This document shows positions 4,701 to 44,977 of a stretch of 64,000 nucleotides of DNA, one piece after another; positions within the stretch are counted from its first letter, which is position 1; each line of letters opens with the position of its first letter. The notes under the pieces are model-generated. The model searched no databases and had not been told where the DNA came from. It saw only the letters and a program-made list of their open reading frames with translations. Source of the stretch: an uncultured Pseudomonadales bacterium (GTDB taxonomy: Bacteria; Pseudomonadota; Gammaproteobacteria; Pseudomonadales; Azotimanducaceae); contig OY282455.1 in NCBI GenBank assembly GCA_958296195.1, forward strand, positions 2,232,001 through 2,296,000, given 5' to 3'. Both the position numbers and the translations under genes were made by a program.

Positions 4701-5159
4701 TCAGTCCGGGGTCAGCAGTAGGCGGTATCCGGCTTCCAGCCTTGCAAAACCGGCGCGGCTGAACAATCTATGCGCCGCAGACTTATTTGGGGGAGTGTCT
4801 TGAGCAGTGCAGGGGAGGGCGCTGTCCCTGCCGACGCTGGTTGGGCTGCGTGCAGTCCTTGGGCACGACACGGTGATTTCCCGCGCCCCCTTGGTTTCGC
4901 AGACGCCGATGGCGTGGCCGAGCAGCCAGCGGCCCAGTCCCCTTTTTCGGTGCGGTGCGGCGACCGCTAAGGCGGTGATGTGGTAGTGGAGGGCGGAGAC
5001 CTGCTCAAAGGCGTAAACGCCGACCACCTCGTTGTCCAGCTTGGCGACGCGCAGCCGCTCCAGAGCGGGCGTATCGGCTAGGGACTGCGGCAGCAGTTCC
5101 CAAGGGACCTCGTCGGGATAGGGGCGATGAATCGGAATCCGTCTTGGGTTCAGTCGCAC
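4701..5159 (-). CDS. GNAT family N-acetyltransferase
   Basis: A 152-residue acetyl-CoA-dependent N-acyltransferase. The core strand and acetyl-CoA loop are visible as HITALAVAAPHRKRGLGRWLL (Q/RxxGxG motif HRKRGLG), and the C-terminal AAHRLFSRAGFARLEAGY is the usual end of the fold. Between these, after EITVSC, about 20-25 extra residues (rich in Ser, Thr and Pro) replace the short segment normally found, which may be a real insertion or an early decay event. Substrate unknown. It lies 160 bases beyond the end of the TauD-like gene on the same strand. Confidence 0.75.
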   Translation of the reverse strand: MRLNPRRIPIHRPYPDEVPWELLPQSLADTPALERLRVAKLDNEVVGVYAFEQVSALHYHITALAVAAPHRKRGLGRWLLGHAIGVCETKGAREITVSCPRTARSPTSVGRDSALPCTAQDTPPNKSAAHRLFSRAGFARLEAGYRLLLTPD

Positions 5160-5319
5160 GCTTCAGGCTCGGATTTTTCCGCCAAGGATGCCGCTGGCGC
5201 CGGTTGGGGTAGCTGCCCATAGGCTTTTCGACCAGTTAGCGAGTGCCTTGCCGGCAACGCCGCCAGCGAGGCCCGTGCTTGCGAAGATTTTGCTGGAGGG
5301 CTGCAACTGGCTGAAACCG

Positions 5320-6147
5320 TTATCTTGGGCGCTCGCCGGCGGTGGTGACGCGGTGCAGCTTGCGGTGTTGGGGAAAATAGTCATTGATGGGCTTGTGCTG
5401 GGTGGAGCGGTTGTCCCAAATGGCGAGAGTTTCCGGTGTCCAAGTCAGGCGGGTGGTGAATTCGGCGGTGGTCAGGTGCTCGTGCAGCAACGCCAGGGTT
5501 CGTTGGCTTTCCAATGCGCTCAACTCCTTGATGCGCACCGTGAACAGGGGGTTGACGTAGAGGGCCTTTTTGCCGGTTTCCGGATGGGTGCGTACCACGG
5601 GGTGGCGCACCGGGGGGTTGGCGGCCACCGTCGCCGCCAGCCGCTCCTCGCCGCCCGGTTCGGCCAGGCTTTCGCGAAAGCCGTAGCGAAAGTCATGCAC
5701 GGCGGTCAGGCCGCTGAGCATTCCCTTAAGGGGCTCGGACAGCGCCTCGTAGGCGGCCGCGGCACTGGCCCAGAGGGTGTCCCCGCCATATTCGGGGATG
5801 ATTTGCCCATGCAGGAAGGTGAAGGCCGGTGGAGTGGCGCTGAAGGTCATGTCGGAGTGCCAGATTTCTATTTTGGAGGGCGCCTCCGCCGTGCTTTCCA
5901 GAACATGCACATGGTCCGCGCCCGGCGCCGCGGGGTAGGCCGGGTGATCGAACAGCGGCCCGAAGCGGCTGGCCGCGGCTTGCAGTTGCGCCGGCGCAAG
6001 AGGCTGATCGCGCAGAAACAACACGCCATGCTCCAGCAGCAGCCGGCGCAATTCATCGAACAGGGCGGCATCGTCCATGGCGTCCTGCAGGGAGACGCCG
6101 CTGACGTAGGCGCCGATGGCCGCCGCCGCTCTTTTTACTTGAACCAT
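5320..6147 (-). CDS. TauD/TfdA family Fe(II)/2-oxoglutarate dioxygenase
   Basis: A 275-residue non-haem iron dioxygenase that couples 2-oxoglutarate decarboxylation to hydroxylation of its substrate. The iron ligands are H and D of EIWHSDMTF (about residues 95-103) and the distal His in NRSTQHKPIND (about 254), with the 2-oxoglutarate-binding Arg in HRKLHRVTT near the C-terminus. GVLFLRDQPL near residue 41 is the conserved N-terminal strand. Length matches TauD (about 283). Family members act on taurine, sulfonates, aryloxyacetates and others, and no sulfonate transporter lies beside it, so the substrate stays open. Transcribed away from the class II aldolase gene. Confidence 0.88.
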   Translation of the reverse strand: MVQVKRAAAAIGAYVSGVSLQDAMDDAALFDELRRLLLEHGVLFLRDQPLAPAQLQAAASRFGPLFDHPAYPAAPGADHVHVLESTAEAPSKIEIWHSDMTFSATPPAFTFLHGQIIPEYGGDTLWASAAAAYEALSEPLKGMLSGLTAVHDFRYGFRESLAEPGGEERLAATVAANPPVRHPVVRTHPETGKKALYVNPLFTVRIKELSALESQRTLALLHEHLTTAEFTTRLTWTPETLAIWDNRSTQHKPINDYFPQHRKLHRVTTAGERPR

Positions 6148-6340
6148 GCCGTGCGGTCTGCTAGTGGTTTGCGGATGCGCATTTTAACTCGAATCGGAGT
6201 TCGCCCGACCCCGGCCGCACCCCTGCAACATCCGCCGTCCGAAGCCTCATTTGGCGGCGCCGTCGGCAATTTTCGGCTTGCTCTCTGGACGCCTCGCCTA
6301 TGTGCGGTTTTGAGTGCGCTCTCCCATAGGACTGACCGTG

Positions 6341-6994
6341 ATGGCTGAGGTGGAGGGCGTCATTCGTTTCGATTACGCGCTGCAGCCGCCTTCCCGCCCC
6401 ATTGACGGGAATTTGGCGCAGCCCCTGCTGGCTTGGCGCACCATGCTGCGGCGCTTGGAGTTGCTTGGGCAAAGGCCGGACCGCTACGGCGGGCTCGGCT
6501 ATGGCAACCTTAGCCGCCGCGTCCCCGGCGGAAACGGTGCCTTCATCATCACCGCCAGCCAGACCAGCGGCATGGCCGAGGCTGGCCTTGGCGAGCTGGT
6601 TCGCGTCAACCGATGCAGTTTTGACGATTTTCAAATGGAGGCTGAGGGCCGGTTGCCGCCGTCTTCGGAAGCGATGACGCACGCGATGGTTTACGCCGCC
6701 GACCCCAGCCTGCACTGGGTGCTGCACGGCCACAGCCCGGAGATTTGGCGCAACGCCGCCGCGCTGGGCTTGCCGGCCATCGCCGCCGACGTGGAGTACG
6801 GCTCCCGGAGCATGGTGGCGGCGGTGGCCGCCTTGTTGAACGCCAACCCGGCGCGGCCCTTGGTGTTCGTGACGCTGGGCCATGAGGACGGCGTCTTCGC
6901 CTGCGGCGGCCAAGTGGAGCCCACCGGCGCGGAACTCATTGTCTGCTTGGGGCGCAGCCTGGCGTTGGCCAAGTCGGGTGCCAGCGCTTCATGA
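6341..6994 (+). CDS. Class II aldolase/adducin family protein, possible partner of MtnA
   Basis: A 217-residue zinc-dependent class II aldolase-fold protein. GLGYGNLSRR (about 46-55) fits the phosphate-binding GN(V/L)S motif, FIITASQTSGM the second substrate motif, and HGHSPEIW with the later LGHEDG the metal ligands. Start ATG 6341 has AGGA about nine bases before it. It is followed 103 bases later by mtnA, so a role in 5-methylthioadenosine salvage is likely: either a methylthioribulose-1-phosphate dehydratase (MtnB-like) or the aldolase that splits methylthioribulose 1-phosphate into DHAP and an aldehyde (DHAP shunt). The sequence alone does not decide between them. Confidence 0.75.
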   Translation: MAEVEGVIRFDYALQPPSRPIDGNLAQPLLAWRTMLRRLELLGQRPDRYGGLGYGNLSRRVPGGNGAFIITASQTSGMAEAGLGELVRVNRCSFDDFQMEAEGRLPPSSEAMTHAMVYAADPSLHWVLHGHSPEIWRNAAALGLPAIAADVEYGSRSMVAAVAALLNANPARPLVFVTLGHEDGVFACGGQVEPTGAELIVCLGRSLALAKSGASAS

Positions 6995-7097
6995 CCGGCA
7001 AGCCGCTTGACAAGGAAGTTCGCTCATCCGCTGGTAGCCTAGGCCCGTGCCGGCTATGCAGGCCGCAGCCCAGGAAGGCAAGCGAGTCAATCTGACC

Positions 7098-8144
7098 ATG
7101 AACACCCCCGCCGCCATACTCTGGGAGCAAGGCCGGTTGCGGTTGTTGGACCAGCGGCAACTCCCCGGCAAGGTGGAATACCTGCCGATTGAGGACATCG
7201 CCGCCGCGGTGCAGGCCATCGCCTCCTTGGCCGTGCGCGGAGCGCCGGCCATCGGCATCGCCGCCGCCTACGCCTTGGCGGCCGCGGCGCAGCGCAGCGC
7301 CGCTGCGGGAAGACGCCGTTCCGCCGAAACCGCCCTGCAAGCCGTTCTGCAAAGGGATGGCGACGCCCTGATCGCCGCTCGGCCAACCGCCGTCAACCTA
7401 CGTTGGGCGGTCGAGCGCCTGCGCCGTCGGGGTGCAGCGGAGCCGACTGCGGCGGCCTTGGTTGACGAAGCGGAGGCCATTCACCGGGAGGACGCCGCCG
7501 CCTGCCGAGCCATCGGTGAGCATGGGCGCGGCTGCATCAAAGCCGGCGACAACGTGCTCACCCACTGCAACGCCGGCGCCTTGGCGGTTTCCGAACTCGG
7601 CACCGCCACCGCGCCCCTTTACCTCAATCATCAGGCTGGCGTTCCCTTTCATGTCTATGTCGATGAGACCCGGCCCCTGTTTCAGGGCGCCCGCTTGACG
7701 GCTTGGGAGTTGGCCAGGGCCGGCATCGGCCTCACCCTGATCTGCGACAGCGCCGCCGCCAGCCTGATGGCGGCCGGCAAGATCGACTTGGTGATCGTCG
7801 GCGCGGACCGAATCGCCGCCAATGGCGACGTGGTCAACAAGATCGGCACTCTCAGCCTGGCCGTGCTCGCCGCTCACTTCCAAGTTCCCTTTTACGTCGC
7901 CTGCCCGTCCTCCACCTTGGACTGGAGCGCAGCGTCCGGTGCCGAGGTGCCCATTGAGGAGCGGGCCGAACAGGAAGTCCGGCAGGAGCACGCCGCCCTG
8001 GTGCCGGCTTTCAATCCCGCCTTCGACGTAACGCCGGCGGCGCTGGTCACCGCCGTCATCACCGAACGGGGCCTCGCCAAGCCGCCGCTGGCGGAGTCCC
8101 TAAAGCGGCTGCATGACGCATCGGGGGAGCTTTCCAGGCATTAG
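7098..8144 (+). CDS. mtnA: S-methyl-5-thioribose-1-phosphate isomerase
   Basis: A 348-residue member of the eIF2B-alpha/MtnA family that converts methylthioribose 1-phosphate to methylthioribulose 1-phosphate in 5-methylthioadenosine salvage. Diagnostic motifs are AVRGAPAIGIAAAYAL (about 45-60), THCNAGALA with the catalytic Cys, the DETRPLFQGARLTAWEL stretch and IVGADRIAANGDVVNKIGT with the catalytic Asp. Length matches the family. ATG 7098 is chosen because it begins the conserved region (TPAAILWEQGRLRLLDQ). Preceded by a class II aldolase gene that probably uses its product; enolase-phosphatase and dioxygenase genes of the classical pathway are not in this window. Confidence 0.93.
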   Translation: MNTPAAILWEQGRLRLLDQRQLPGKVEYLPIEDIAAAVQAIASLAVRGAPAIGIAAAYALAAAAQRSAAAGRRRSAETALQAVLQRDGDALIAARPTAVNLRWAVERLRRRGAAEPTAAALVDEAEAIHREDAAACRAIGEHGRGCIKAGDNVLTHCNAGALAVSELGTATAPLYLNHQAGVPFHVYVDETRPLFQGARLTAWELARAGIGLTLICDSAAASLMAAGKIDLVIVGADRIAANGDVVNKIGTLSLAVLAAHFQVPFYVACPSSTLDWSAASGAEVPIEERAEQEVRQEHAALVPAFNPAFDVTPAALVTAVITERGLAKPPLAESLKRLHDASGELSRH

Positions 8145-8298
8145 ACGGAACTCTCCCGCCCCCGCAAATTTGCCGGCAATCTGGCATGGAACCAGCGTGG
8201 CGCCGGCAACTGGGCAACACACTGCGACCGAGCGGGGAGATTGCGTCTGGCGCTCGCTCTAGCCACAATGGATCGCCTGTGTGGAGCTCAATACCGGA

Positions 8299-10032
8299 AT
8301 GAAGCGGAAAACCCGACTTAGGCGCATTGTCAGTGGAAGCCGGCGCCTGCCGTTCGCGGCGGTCTTGGCGCTGCTGACGGCCTGTGATGGCCAGGCGCCG
8401 GCGCCCATGTCGGCGGATCGGCTTTGGGTGGGGGAGCACATCATCACTTTGGATGAGGCCCAGGCCGGCGCCACGGCGGTGGCTGTTAGGGGCGAGAGGA
8501 TTCTTTGGGTGGGCCGCCGGGAGGACTGGGCGGGGGAAGCGGCGCAGATCACTGAACTTGGCGAACGGGCGCTGCTGCCGGGGTTCATCGACGCCCACGG
8601 CCATCTGTCTTTCTCCGCCCGCAGGGCGCAGACCGCCAACGTCGCTTCGCCGCCGGTGGGCGCGGTGACCGCCATCCCTTCGTTGCAGGAGGTTTTGCGC
8701 ACCTACATGGCGGAGCGGGGCATCGCGCCGGGCGAATGGGTGGTCGGGGTTGGTTATGACGACTCCCTGCTCGAGGAGCGTCGCCATCCCAACCGGGACG
8801 ACCTTGACGCCGTTTCCGACCGCCATCCGATTGTCCTCATTCATGTCTCCGGGCATCTGGCCGCCATCAACAGCTTAGCGCTGCAGCGCCTTGGCGTAAC
8901 CGCCGAGACGCCGGACCCTGCGGGGGGCCTCATCCGGCGAAGGCCGGGCCGGCAGGTGCCCGATGGCGTTTTGGAGGAGACCGCCATGATGCCTCTGTTC
9001 CCGCAGTTTCTCGGCGGCAGCCTGCCGGCGGAGGATATTCAGGCGACGCTGCGCACCTACGCCAGCCACGGCGTCACCACAGTTCAAGACGGCGCCGCTT
9101 CGCTGGCTGATTATGAACGGTTCGTCGAAGTGGCTGGAGAGGAAGGCTTGCCGCTTGACGTAACGGTTTACCCAAGTGTGGCGTCGGCAGAGTTTCAGTT
9201 GCCCTTGGAGGCGCCGCTTGGCGAGTATCGAGATCGGGTCAAGCTGGCTGGCGTCAAGCTCATTCTGGACGGTTCCCCGCAAGGCAAAACCGCCTACTTG
9301 AGCAAGCCGTACTTCGTGCCGCCGCCCGGCCAGTCACCCGACTATCGCGGCTATCCGATCATGCCGCAAGCAGCGGTGGACGCCTTGATCGCCCGCTTTG
9401 CCGGCACCGGCACACCCATGCTGGTGCATTGCAACGGCGATGCTGCTGCCGACATGCTGCTCAACGCGATGGAGCGGGCCGGCCGGGATGCGCCCTTGGG
9501 CGACCATCGCACGGTGATGATCCACGCCCAGACGGTGCGGGAGGACCAGTTGCAGCGCATGGCAGCGTTGGGAGTGCTGCCGTCCTTCTTTTCCGCCCAT
9601 GTCTTTTATTGGGGGGATTGGCATCGAGACTCGGTGCTGGGGCCGGAGCGGGCCGCCAACATCAGCCCAACCCGCTCCGCCTTGGCCCAAGGTTTGGCGT
9701 TCACCCTGCATAACGATGCGCCAGTGGTGCCGCCGGACATGGTTCGCCTGCTCTGGGCCACGGTCAACCGCGTCACCCGCAGCGGCTACCTGCTGGGCCC
9801 GGAGCAGCGCATCCCAGTGCTGGAGGCTCTGCGGGCCGTCACCGTCAACGCCGCGCGGCAAGCCTTTGAGGAGTGCTGCAAGGGCAGCATCACCCCCGGC
9901 AAACAGGCGGACTTGGTGGTGTTGTCCCGCAATCCCTTGCCGATGCCGCCGCAGGATCTTCTGGACCTGAAGGTGGTGGAGACCATTTCCCGAGGGACTT
10001 CCATCTTCGCTGCCGCCGATGGCGATGGCTAA
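8299..10032 (+). CDS. Lipoprotein amidohydrolase (YtcJ/amidohydrolase-3 type)
   Basis: A 577-residue metal-dependent hydrolase. The N-terminus is a lipoprotein signal (KRKTRLRR, a hydrophobic core, then LLTACDG), so lipidation at that Cys and anchoring in the envelope are expected. Next come ALLPGFIDAHGHLS (metal ligands HGH), GVTTVQDGA, KLILDGSPQGKTA, VHCNGDAAADM, MIHAQTV and FTLHNDAPVVPPD, in the order of the YtcJ-like amidohydrolase 3 subgroup. ATG 8299 is preferred over GTG 8281 because it begins the basic signal region. Substrates of this family are diverse (amides, ureas, N-acyl compounds) and not predictable here. GreB follows after three bases. Confidence 0.87.
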   Translation: MKRKTRLRRIVSGSRRLPFAAVLALLTACDGQAPAPMSADRLWVGEHIITLDEAQAGATAVAVRGERILWVGRREDWAGEAAQITELGERALLPGFIDAHGHLSFSARRAQTANVASPPVGAVTAIPSLQEVLRTYMAERGIAPGEWVVGVGYDDSLLEERRHPNRDDLDAVSDRHPIVLIHVSGHLAAINSLALQRLGVTAETPDPAGGLIRRRPGRQVPDGVLEETAMMPLFPQFLGGSLPAEDIQATLRTYASHGVTTVQDGAASLADYERFVEVAGEEGLPLDVTVYPSVASAEFQLPLEAPLGEYRDRVKLAGVKLILDGSPQGKTAYLSKPYFVPPPGQSPDYRGYPIMPQAAVDALIARFAGTGTPMLVHCNGDAAADMLLNAMERAGRDAPLGDHRTVMIHAQTVREDQLQRMAALGVLPSFFSAHVFYWGDWHRDSVLGPERAANISPTRSALAQGLAFTLHNDAPVVPPDMVRLLWATVNRVTRSGYLLGPEQRIPVLEALRAVTVNAARQAFEECCKGSITPGKQADLVVLSRNPLPMPPQDLLDLKVVETISRGTSIFAAADGDG

Positions 10033-42088: not shown

Positions 42089-43666
42089 ATGCCTCAATTG
42101 CCCCCATTTCTACTGCAGGACGCCCAAGGCGGCCGTCATAGCTTCCCCAGCGACAGACCGGCGCTGATCGGCTTCGTCAAGGAGGACTGTCCCACCTGCG
42201 ATGCGGTCATGCCCTTGCTTGAGGGGCTTTACGCCGCCTTGGGTTCGGCGGTGGACTTCTTCGTTGCCGGGCAAACCGCCGCCGGCAACCAACTTCTTAC
42301 GGCGCGGCACGGCCTCACCCTGCCTTTGCTGGACGACAGTTCGCTTAAGGTCTCCTTCGCCTACGATGTGGAAGTCGTGCCCACTCTGTGCGTCGTGGGC
42401 GCCGATGGCCAGCTTCAGGAACGGCTGGTGGGCTTGGCGCGGGATGAGTGGCGGCGGGCGCTGGAGGGGTTGGCCGTCGCCGCCGAAGCCGGGCCGCTGG
42501 CTTTGGATTGGGAGAGCTATCCGCAGTGGCGGCCGGGCTGCGGCTCCCGGTCGGTGGATCCTGCTGTGGCGGATCGGTTGCGGGCGCAAGCGGAGAACAG
42601 CCCCTTGCGCGCCCGGCGCATCGAGGTCGGCGATGCCGACGATGCGTTCGAACTGATGTACGACCTAGGCTTCAGCGACGGCCTGCCCTTGGTGCCGCCG
42701 ACGCCGGAGCGGGTGCTGCGCATGTTGGAGGGTACGGGTCGAGACGCTCAGGAGGTGGTGGCGGTAGTGCCGCCGAACATGGGCGAGGCCACGGTGGAGA
42801 AGGTGGCCATCAACGCGGTGCTGGCCGGCTGCCGGCCGGAATATCTGCCGGTGGTCATCGCCGGCTTGCAGGCGGTTTGCACGGACGACTTCAACATCCA
42901 CGGCGTCATGGCCACCACCATGGGCGCCAGCCCGGTTTTGGTCGTTAACGGCCCGGTGCGCCACCGGCTGGGCATGAACATGCAGCTGGGCGTTCTAGGG
43001 CAGGGCAACCGCGCCAACGCCAGCATCGGCCGGGCTTTGCGCTTGGCCATCCGCAACCTCGGCGGCGCCGTGCCCGGCGGCACCGAGCGCTCCACCTTTG
43101 GCAACCCCATGAAGTTCACGATGTGCTTCCCGGAATGGGAGGAGCGCAGCCCTTGGCCCCCCCTGCATGTGGAGCGCGGGTTCGCGCCAGAGGATTCGGT
43201 GGTGACCGCCTTCGCCATGAGCAGCGGGCCGGTGCTGATGGTCGATCAAGACGCCCGCAGCGGCGCCCATCTGGCCGGCTCCTTCGGCCTGTGCTTGGAA
43301 AGCGCCTTGCATCCCCGCGCCCACTTCGCCACCGAGGCGCTGATGGTGGTTTCCCCGGAGCATGTCGATACCTTTGTGCGGGACGATTACGGCAAAGCGG
43401 AAATCCGCGCCCGCATTCAGGAGGTGAGCGCCCGCCCCATCGGCGAATTGGTGGCCGATGAGGTCTCCGCCGTGGGCCTCAAGCGGGCCGCCGCCGCGGC
43501 CATGGACGCCACAGCCCTAGCTAGGCAGTTGCCTAAATTTCGCCGCGCTGAGGACATCCACATCGTTGTGGCCGGCGCCGAGGCCGGCAAGTTTTCCGCC
43601 GCTTTCCACGGTTGGGTGACCGGGGAGGTCGGCTCCATTCCCGTTTCCCAAAAGATGGAGGATTAA
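42089..43666 (+). CDS. Thioredoxin-like domain fused to a large UGSC-associated domain
   Basis: A 525-residue protein. Residues 1-120 form a thioredoxin-like fold: IGFVKEDCPTCDAVMPLLEG has a CPTC redox pair (C34, C37), and EVVPTLCVVGADGQL is the cis-Pro region. After a linker (130-190), a large domain follows: FELMYDLGFSDGLPLVPPTP, VPPNMGEATVEKVAINAVLA, FNIHGVMATTMGASPVLVVN and GNRANASIGRALRLAIRNLG. I know this domain only as a companion of UGSC-type proteins; no reaction is established. It ends just before the selenoprotein gene, whose Shine-Dalgarno GGAGG lies in its last codons, so the two are translated together. Probably a redox couple, with the thioredoxin part reducing the partner. Cytoplasmic; no signal peptide. 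Confidence 0.75.
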   Translation: MPQLPPFLLQDAQGGRHSFPSDRPALIGFVKEDCPTCDAVMPLLEGLYAALGSAVDFFVAGQTAAGNQLLTARHGLTLPLLDDSSLKVSFAYDVEVVPTLCVVGADGQLQERLVGLARDEWRRALEGLAVAAEAGPLALDWESYPQWRPGCGSRSVDPAVADRLRAQAENSPLRARRIEVGDADDAFELMYDLGFSDGLPLVPPTPERVLRMLEGTGRDAQEVVAVVPPNMGEATVEKVAINAVLAGCRPEYLPVVIAGLQAVCTDDFNIHGVMATTMGASPVLVVNGPVRHRLGMNMQLGVLGQGNRANASIGRALRLAIRNLGGAVPGGTERSTFGNPMKFTMCFPEWEERSPWPPLHVERGFAPEDSVVTAFAMSSGPVLMVDQDARSGAHLAGSFGLCLESALHPRAHFATEALMVVSPEHVDTFVRDDYGKAEIRARIQEVSARPIGELVADEVSAVGLKRAAAAAMDATALARQLPKFRRAEDIHIVVAGAEAGKFSAAFHGWVTGEVGSIPVSQKMED

Positions 43667-43668
43667 CC

Positions 43669-44184
43669 ATGCTGACTATTCTGGACCCCACCGATGAACG
43701 CACGCCCCCAACGCGGCAGGTAACGCCGCGCACCGGCAAGGTGACCGGCAACGTGGCGTTCCTGGACATCTCCAAGCCAAAGGGCAACCTGCTGCTGGAC
43801 CGGCTGCAGAGCCTGCTGGAGGTAAGTGCGCCCGGGGTGCGCATCAACCGCTACGTCAAGCCCACCTTCGCCAAGCCGGCCCCGGCGGAACTGCGGGCGA
43901 AGATCGCCGGGGAGAACGACTTCATCGTTGAAGCCCTGGCGGACTGAGGCTCCTGTACCACGTGCAGTTTGCATGACACGGTATGGTTCGAGCTGCGCGG
44001 CAAGCCGGCGGTGGCCATCGCCTCGAGCGAGTTCATCGACGCCGCCGCCACCCAAGCCGCCGCCCTCGGCATGAAGGACGCCCGCTGCGTGTTCGTCCCC
44101 CATCCCATTCAGGATGCGACGGATGAGGAAATGCAGGACAAGGCGGACGCCGTTCTTGAGCAATTGATGGAGGCCCTGACATAA
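43669..44184 (+). CDS. UGSC-type selenoprotein (in-frame TGA read as selenocysteine)
   Basis: A 171-residue product if TGA at 43945-43947 is decoded as selenocysteine (residue 93). The downstream frame remains open for 78 more codons, starting U-Gly-Ser-Cys, then TTCSLHDTVWFELRGKPAVA and CVFVPHPIQDATDEEM, so both halves are equally protein-like. The UGSC motif and the later PHP(I/L) segment match the family first noted in marine metagenome selenoproteome surveys. Residues U93 and C96 would form a selenenyl-sulfide redox centre. GGAGG is about seven bases before ATG 43669. The cofactor machinery (SelA, SelB, SelC, SelD) must be elsewhere in the genome. Standard gene callers would stop at 43947 and lose the C-terminal half. 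Confidence 0.85.
43945..43984 (+). promoter_or_regulatory. Selenocysteine codon and candidate bacterial SECIS hairpin
   Basis: TGA at 43945-43947 is followed by GUACC (43955-43959), AC, GUGC (43962-43965), loop AGUUU, GCAU (43971-43974), GACAC, then GGUAU (43980-43984). The two stems pair (four and five base pairs including two G-U) and the apical loop begins 18 bases after the TGA, within the usual 16-37 range for bacterial SECIS elements. The loop contains GU. Folding was done by eye. Confidence 0.5.
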
Positions 44185-44189
44185 AGCGG

Positions 44190-44285
44190 TTGTTGCAGGT
44201 TTTAGTCGGATTGACGGCCTTGCTGTCCTTCGGCTTCGGTTTGTTGTCTGTCCTGCCGGGCGCCCACCGGCAGTGGGTGGCCTAG
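44190..44285 (+). CDS. Candidate small hydrophobic peptide
   Basis: An open frame from TTG 44190, about 31 residues, almost all hydrophobic (LLQVLVGLTALLSFGFGLLS) with a short tail GAHRQWVA. It begins six bases past the selenoprotein stop and ends two bases before the DUF2461 start, which would suit translational coupling. There is no ATG and no convincing ribosome binding site, so it may be chance. Confidence 0.25.
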   Translation: MLQVLVGLTALLSFGFGLLSVLPGAHRQWVA

Positions 44286-44287
44286 CC

Positions 44288-44977
44288 GTGCCGGCCTTTC
44301 AGGGTTTTGGCGCGGCCACGGTCCGCTTCCTGCAGGAGTTGGAGGCGAACAACAACCGGGACTGGTTTCAGGCCAACAAACATCGCTACGAAGCGGAGGT
44401 GCTGGCCCCGGCGCTGGACTTCATCAGCGCCATGAGTGATGAGTTCGATGGGTTCGCGCCGCACTTCACCGCACTGCCGAAGCGCATGGGCGGCTCCCTG
44501 ATGCGGGTGTATAGGGACGTGCGCTTCAGTCCCAGCAAGGCGCCGTACAAGACCAACATCGGCATTCAATTTCACCACGAGCAGGGCAAAGACGTGCATG
44601 CCCCCGGCTACTACCTGCACATTGAGTCCACCGGCTGCTTCTTCGGCGCCGGCATGTGGCGGCCGGCGCCGGAGGCGCTGCAGGCCATCCGCAGCCGCAT
44701 TGCCGAACAGCCCCAGACTTGGCGGCGGGTGTTGGAGGCCCGTGAGTTCACGGAGACCTTCCGCTTGGGTGGCGATGCGCTGAAGCGCCCGCCTCGGGGC
44801 TACGCCGCCGACCTGCCGCACATCGAGGACCTCAAGCGCAAGAGCTTCATCGGCAGCTGCGACTTTCCGGTGGCCAACGCCGCCAGCCCCGGCTTTCCGC
44901 AGGAGGCGGCGGCCACCTTCGCCAAGGCCGCGCCGCTGATGGCCTTCCTGTGCGCGGCGCTGAACGTGCCGTTTTGA
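44288..44977 (+). CDS. DUF2461 family protein
   Basis: A 229-residue member of DUF2461 (TIGR02453). FLQELEANNNRDWFQANKHR, MRVYRDVRFSPSKAPYKTNI and HIESTGCFFGAGMWRP are the family hallmarks. Members occur widely in bacteria and fungi, and no function is established. The start is likely GTG 44288 (VPAFQGFGAATVRFLQ); GTG 44273 is possible. It closes a run of same-strand genes after the selenoprotein and precedes nadA. Confidence 0.87.
   Translation: MPAFQGFGAATVRFLQELEANNNRDWFQANKHRYEAEVLAPALDFISAMSDEFDGFAPHFTALPKRMGGSLMRVYRDVRFSPSKAPYKTNIGIQFHHEQGKDVHAPGYYLHIESTGCFFGAGMWRPAPEALQAIRSRIAEQPQTWRRVLEAREFTETFRLGGDALKRPPRGYAADLPHIEDLKRKSFIGSCDFPVANAASPGFPQEAAATFAKAAPLMAFLCAALNVPF

Follow-up and report, generated by a model that had tools for sequence, protein, structure and literature searches.

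UGSC is a selenoprotein family with a published record and little known biochemistry. A survey of the ocean reported 255 UGSC selenoproteins in 2008 (Zhang and Gladyshev; PMC2398784), and in a 2021 survey the family accounted for 8.2% of selenoprotein genes. A 2026 review, which credits UGSC to a 2007 paper, places it among the selenoproteins with functions that are largely uncharacterised (PMC13188914), in agreement with the statement of the initial annotation that the function of the family is not established (these publications are cited from excerpts, here and below). Zhang and Gladyshev suggested a thioredoxin (Trx)-like fold and a redox role for UGSC, and also reported a fusion of UGSC to a conserved unnamed domain, Unknown_1 (PMC2398784). 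In the literature searched, of which excerpts were available, we found no description of a general pairing of UGSC with a partner gene; an earlier one is possible, for example in the 2025 paper by Haft and Tolstoy, which deals with the gene neighbourhoods of selenoproteins.

Two other described systems share features with the locus analyzed here, namely the thiol-disulfide oxidoreductases of the ResA type and the glycine and D-proline reductases. In glycine and D-proline reductase, a subunit carrying a UxxC motif works together with further subunits and with electrons from thiols.

The locus lies in a window of 64,000 nucleotides (the whole stretch of DNA that was analyzed) from the genome of an uncultured Pseudomonadales bacterium. 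Compared with the descriptions of the UGSC family (NF041046 and PF24696), the selenoprotein itself shows no difference; its constant partner, in contrast, goes unnamed in them. The added interest comes from the gene directly upstream (42089-43666), on which the initial annotation made no remark. A co-inherited partner from an unnamed family turns the question of UGSC function into a testable problem of two proteins and, if the proposal made below is true, a selenoprotein family that ranks among the most common in aquatic environments would be half of an unrecognised enzyme.

The UGSC gene and its upstream neighbour

The UGSC gene occupies positions 43669-44184 of the forward strand, from an ATG start to a TAA stop (44182-44184). 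The only break in its reading frame is a TGA codon at 43945-43947; translated with this codon as selenocysteine (Sec, U), the frame gives one continuous product of 171 residues, with U93-G-S-C96. This product scored 160.3 bits against NF041046 (cut-off 125), covering positions 4-147 of the 147 in the profile, and 156.1 bits against PF24696 (cut-off 25), covering positions 1-171 of 172. Both curated cut-offs are thus passed over the whole length, and the U/C-G-S-C motif is present. Because the sequences before and after the TGA belong to a single family and match it along its length, the open frame across this codon is not due to chance. The initial annotation had recognised a UGSC protein from the shared frame and good protein sequence on both sides of the TGA, and from the Gly-Ser-Cys codons that follow it. 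All these points were borne out, coordinates and residue numbers included, as was the expectation that ordinary annotation splits the gene: ORF calling yields two pieces, 43612-43947 and 43969-44184. Judged from its sequence, 43669-44184 is a genuine UGSC-family selenoprotein, a fresh member of an already published family.

Two cysteines follow the TGA closely. Cys96 of the motif (43954-43956), a candidate resolving thiol, is Cys in 118 of the 119 aligned UGSC sequences. Cys99 (43963-43965) is kept in most (98/119), with Gly at this site in type B copies and Trp in fused forms (the arrangements are described below). The same genome has a second UGSC copy (C1:115906-117561) in arrangement B, also with a TGA, which scored 140.9 bits against PF24696 (cut-off 25) and 101 bits against NF041046, below the cut-off of 125. 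Near this second locus there is a gene for a small protein built from short, almost identical repeats of the KLDERLAAHES / MQDERLAAHAS type (L040, 7047-7583).

The partner gene (42089-43666, forward strand) encodes 525 residues, and its stop codon ends two bases before the start codon of the UGSC gene. The likely ribosome-binding site of the latter, GGAGG at 43657-43661, is within the end of the partner gene. At the N-terminus of the partner (approximately residues 1-127; 42089-42469) there is a predicted thioredoxin-like domain: its AlphaFold2 model resembles ResA (1su9) with a TM-score of 0.84 normalised by target, and its match to PF00578, at 24.8 bits, is slightly below the cut-off of 26. 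The domain carries the motif C34-P-T-C37 (42188-42199), and C[PHE]TC is found in the first 60 residues of 69 of 71 close partner sequences. The likeness to ResA-type oxidoreductases, CPTC included, is confined to the first, N-terminal quarter of the protein. It is missing in type B partners, which do not have the thioredoxin-like domain.

The C-terminal domain of the partner (residues 178-525; 42620-43663) belongs to an unnamed family. We found no significant Pfam match for it (the best, with E 0.044, spans a short stretch), nor any NCBIfam match for the window sequence, with scattered weak matches across 28 members of the family (best E 0.038). A search of PDB sequences with this domain gave nothing convincing, and the top 50 structures listed by fold searches with the whole partner were almost all thioredoxin-like or related proteins. 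Two cysteines of this domain, Cys248 (42830-42832) and Cys346 (43124-43126), are invariant in the family alignment of 28 rows, and are Cys in 105/107 and 106/107 sequences, respectively.

Association of UGSC and its partner across genomes

We collected homologous loci from GTDB genomes; 245 relatives of the UGSC gene were confirmed, and the 80 best of them were kept. Using tblastn, a partner homologue was detected upstream in 79 of these 80 close loci, always on the strand that carries UGSC; in the remaining one (L111), the contig starts 3 bases before the UGSC gene. When neighbouring genes were counted as ORF clusters, the partner appeared as a row in 49 of 53 loci, and in 13 of 15 after thinning, which is below the tblastn figure probably because these rows are ORF clusters and not a tblastn test.

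We also searched 97 related genomes with a profile of the C-terminal domain of the partner. The domain was found in 56 of them, including all 54 genomes with UGSC; most positives belong to one family, and the 97 genomes overlap with the 80 loci (L041 and G006:C23, for instance, are contigs of equal length, 90949), so that the two sets of counts are not independent. A partner relative was located less than 1 kb away from 95 of the 100 UGSC matches: 59 partners were upstream, 34 downstream, and 2 on the opposite strand. Since order and strand vary, the pairing is not one inherited arrangement. Counting by eye, 94 of the 95 UGSC matches with one in-frame TGA were paired, versus one of the five matches without TGA, which was a fragment at a contig end. 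In these counts the position of the TGA was confirmed for the 80 loci and for the listed TGA-bearing UGSC loci, and for the other matches among the 97 genomes the presence of one in-frame TGA was counted.

The five unpaired matches comprise two relatives with a serine (L124 and L125), two pieces in G012 that overlap and belong to a single match, and one match of 20 bits in G021. The two former (L124 4072-4545 and L125 4006-4410, each on the minus strand) have Ser in place of Sec/Cys and no partner in the fetched stretch, and have possibly been repurposed. Since these two relatives occur without a partner in the fetched stretch, the UGSC fold can exist alone.

The opposite case, a partner without UGSC, was seen in two genomes. 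In G036, the contig ends 69 bases past the partner gene. In G001, a one-contig genome of the same genus as that of the window, there is a remnant: a partner piece of 57 residues with two TAA stops (G001:C1:513789-513959, within L192, G001:C1:508000-520000). This genome has no UGSC match and has kept selB and tRNA-Sec. Beside the remnant are genes that resemble those around the second UGSC copy in the window's genome (a P450-like gene, named by eye), and in G001 both members of the pair seem to have disappeared together. An extra partner gene in G028 is a second tandem copy. Tandem partner-domain genes following a single UGSC gene were also observed in L139 (1002-3159) and at G230:C1:4572244-4574063; in this subgroup, the tandem genes may encode two different partner subunits.

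The pair is found in three arrangements: a partner with thioredoxin-like domain followed by UGSC, as in the window (A); UGSC followed by a partner without this domain (B); and a fused form (C). In the fused form, seen in G053 and G014 (L121 and L122), UGSC and partner constitute one ORF, with UGSC first. The UGSC/Unknown_1 fusion (PMC2398784) is alike in that UGSC is joined to an unnamed domain, and differs in that the excerpted text describes fusions and not a general pairing. The Unknown_1 domain of that fusion is probably our partner domain.

Finally, we searched a phylum-wide sample of 398 genomes, scoring in each the best 8 candidates for UGSC and the best 5 for the partner. UGSC was found in 5 genomes and the partner in the same 5, adjacent each time. 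The probability of obtaining five matching sets by chance is 1.2e-11, a value that is uncorrected for kinship and counts the window's own genome.

A proposed two-part selenoenzyme

Linkage that is maintained despite changes in gene order, joint loss, phylum-wide co-occurrence, and gene fusion all speak for a single job shared by the two proteins. In favour of thiol/selenol redox chemistry are the CPTC domain and the two invariant cysteines of the partner, together with the UGSC motif. Putting the two together, we propose that UGSC and its upstream partner are a two-part redox selenoenzyme fed by thioredoxin-like electrons, a reading that we regard as reasonably likely. In this enzyme, Sec93, positioned where a helix begins, would be the attacking or redox-active residue, and Cys96 would serve as its resolving thiol. 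The C-terminal domain of the partner, with Cys248 and Cys346, would complete the active site. Electrons would be returned by the thioredoxin-like CPTC domain, or by a separate thioredoxin where this domain is missing. By analogy, the enzyme may have a working style like that of glycine and D-proline reductase. More tentatively, the pair could represent an undescribed class of selenoenzyme, in which the UGSC selenol, an active site completed by the partner, and a built-in or borrowed thioredoxin would act on a small carboxylate or a similar compound.

The gene neighbourhood gives a weak hint that the substrate is a small organic acid. A gene of the MFS type is near UGSC in 27 of the 53 long close loci (6 of 15 after thinning), at a median distance of about 300 bases, and its best matches are monocarboxylate transporters, at scores far below the cut-offs of the models. 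No MFS gene is present directly downstream of UGSC in the window, where the next gene is DUF2461. Other recurrent neighbours, named by eye, were acyl-CoA dehydrogenase (24 of the 53 loci), TauD-type dioxygenase (22), and a gene resembling short-chain dehydrogenases (19). After thinning these were reduced to 3, 3 and 2 of 15 loci, respectively, and were not retained.

Predicted fold and comparison with reductase selenoprotein B

The AlphaFold2 model of UGSC (mean pLDDT 83.2, pTM 0.80) is a flavodoxin-like (beta-alpha)5 fold, in which Sec93 comes after the strand 85-91 and directly before the helix 94-109. Among the structured parts of the model, confidence is lowest in the block that contains the Sec motif (mean pLDDT 61). 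Foldseek matched the model to TIR, azoreductase, flavodoxin and flavodiiron structures with TM-scores of about 0.4-0.5, and a search of PDB sequences with UGSC gave nothing convincing. The Trx-like fold suggested in 2008 is thus not the one predicted here.

This bears on another explanation of the data, which we consider rather unlikely: UGSC would be a stand-alone thiol oxidoreductase, involved in the general handling of peroxides or disulfides, and the partner would merely be co-regulated with it. Such a protein would fit the Trx-like fold and redox role suggested by Zhang and Gladyshev (PMC2398784), UxxC is a common redox motif, and the two Ser-bearing relatives do occur without partner. 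The predicted fold, however, is not that of thioredoxin, and the co-occurrence and fusion of UGSC with its partner are tighter than co-regulation requires.

Somewhat more doubtful still is a true, if remote, homology between UGSC and selenoprotein B of glycine and D-proline reductase (PF07355), which would make the pair a divergent reductase; this would be compatible with the two-part enzyme that we favour. In both proteins, U-x-x-C precedes a helix, after which comes G-x-P-x-V or a similar sequence. Aligning their profiles with hhalign placed Sec opposite Sec, with a P-value of 0.0022, but the hhalign probability was 13%, and the alignment was helped by Sec being written as Cys in both profiles. 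Furthermore, the UGSC protein has no match to PF07355 at E 0.001 (PF24696 alone was reported), and the C-terminal domain of the partner has no recognised match, with no significant model of any kind for it.

Genes resembling PF07355 are present in their own right in 43 of the 97 related genomes, including that of the window, and 22 of the 30 such loci that were fetched have an in-frame stop before P-x-C. The window's genome thus holds another type of selenoprotein gene: its PF07355-like gene (G000:C1:2673091-2673342; L200 ~7000-7590, minus strand) has an in-frame TGA followed by Pro-Val-Cys.

Decoding of the TGA codon

The TGA at 43945-43947 is very probably read as Sec. Among the homologous loci (the best 80 of 245), all 80 have TGA at exactly the codon of Sec93, with conserved protein continuing beyond it. 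The residues after Sec are GSCTTCS in 79 of them, and GSCTSCS in the other. The initial annotation had named homologues ending before the TGA as an observation that would speak against Sec; the homologues instead continue with conserved sequence past this codon.

The phylum-wide sample gives a complementary view. Among its five genomes with UGSC, the site is TGA in the three with selB over the cut-off, and Cys in the two without (G233 and G367). In G233, the reading frame is uninterrupted across the site. This genome has a selB-like fragment of 113 residues at a contig end (114 bits), which we interpret as part of EF-Tu. The tRNA-Sec match of G233, at 51.5 bits, is slightly above the 47-bit threshold and resembles secondary matches in G230 and G401. 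In G367, the UGSC gene is broken by a frame change and by a TGA elsewhere than at the Sec site. Together with the conservation of the TGA, the frozen codons that follow it, and the presence of selA, selB, tRNA-Sec and selD in the genome (both described below), the Cys found in these two genomes upholds the original reading of the TGA as Sec.

It is highly improbable that translation truly ends at the TGA, or that this codon arose by nonsense mutation, the downstream half being dead or a separate small gene. Standard ORF calling does split the gene, and an ORF of 71 codons starts after the TGA; against this stand the TGA and conserved downstream protein in every fetched homologue, the Cys-bearing relative in G233 that reads straight through, and the complete Sec machinery. 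The decoding of the TGA as some other residue, through a code change or a suppressor tRNA, has a similarly negligible probability, as we found no point supporting it and it is opposed by the ordinary use of TGA as a stop in the adjacent gene (44273-44977, ending with TGA at 44975-44977), by the Sec machinery, and by the Cys at the site in the two genomes without selB over the cut-off.

Synonymous constraint after the TGA

In bacteria, the SECIS would be sought just after the UGA. We computed normalised synonymous entropy in windows of 12 codons for 81 sequences (the 80 loci and the window gene). The value was 0.23 in codons 94-105 (43948-43983), versus about 0.8 along most of the gene and a minimum of 0.76 outside codons 92-112; the lowest value for 12 codons of the partner gene was 0.72 (28 ungapped sequences). 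A bacterial SECIS would leave just such a block of frozen codons directly after the UGA, and we read 43948-43983 as the putative SECIS region.

Within this region, an apical hairpin of six pairs with a GTT loop is predicted at 43961-43975, that is, bases 14-28 after the TGA. In all 35 distinct close sequences, the six pairs are standard (counting G-T). Three divergent sequences (L121, L122 and L139) have, by eye, one C-G pair swapped to G-C. The lower stem of the predicted SECIS is often broken, and several type B copies fold otherwise. We did not find unusual stability of the fold, 911 of 2000 synonymous shuffles being as stable or more, nor any Rfam match over the gathering score in the window. 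Synonymous constraint and the conserved apical hairpin both point to a SECIS just after the UGA; because the fold energy fails its shuffle control, the case rests on the synonymous constraint.

Sec machinery in this and related genomes

The initial annotation had proposed a search for the Sec machinery in the genome, which is assembled in one contig of 4.31 Mb, and had named a lack of selB and selC (tRNA-Sec) in a complete genome as evidence that would speak against Sec. All four components were found over the cut-off: selA (518 bits), selB (401), selD (274) and tRNA-Sec (74). They are clustered within about 10 kb, at C1:3050856-3060910.

Across the 97 related genomes, UGSC (present in 54) was accompanied by tRNA-Sec in most cases: by our tally, a tRNA-Sec match of at least 59 bits was present in 49 of the 54 genomes with UGSC, versus 8 of the 43 without it. 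Of the five exceptions, G026, G030 and G049 had no tRNA-Sec that reached the gathering score, and the matches in G055 and G058 had only 48-50 bits. These five genomes count against a perfect fit between UGSC and tRNA-Sec; each is a draft assembly and the search filters were stricter, which perhaps accounts for the misses. In one genome, G401, the genes for selB, tRNA-Sec, the partner and UGSC are consecutive on the minus strand (L210, G401:C31, ~5009-9163), forming a compact selenocysteine island.
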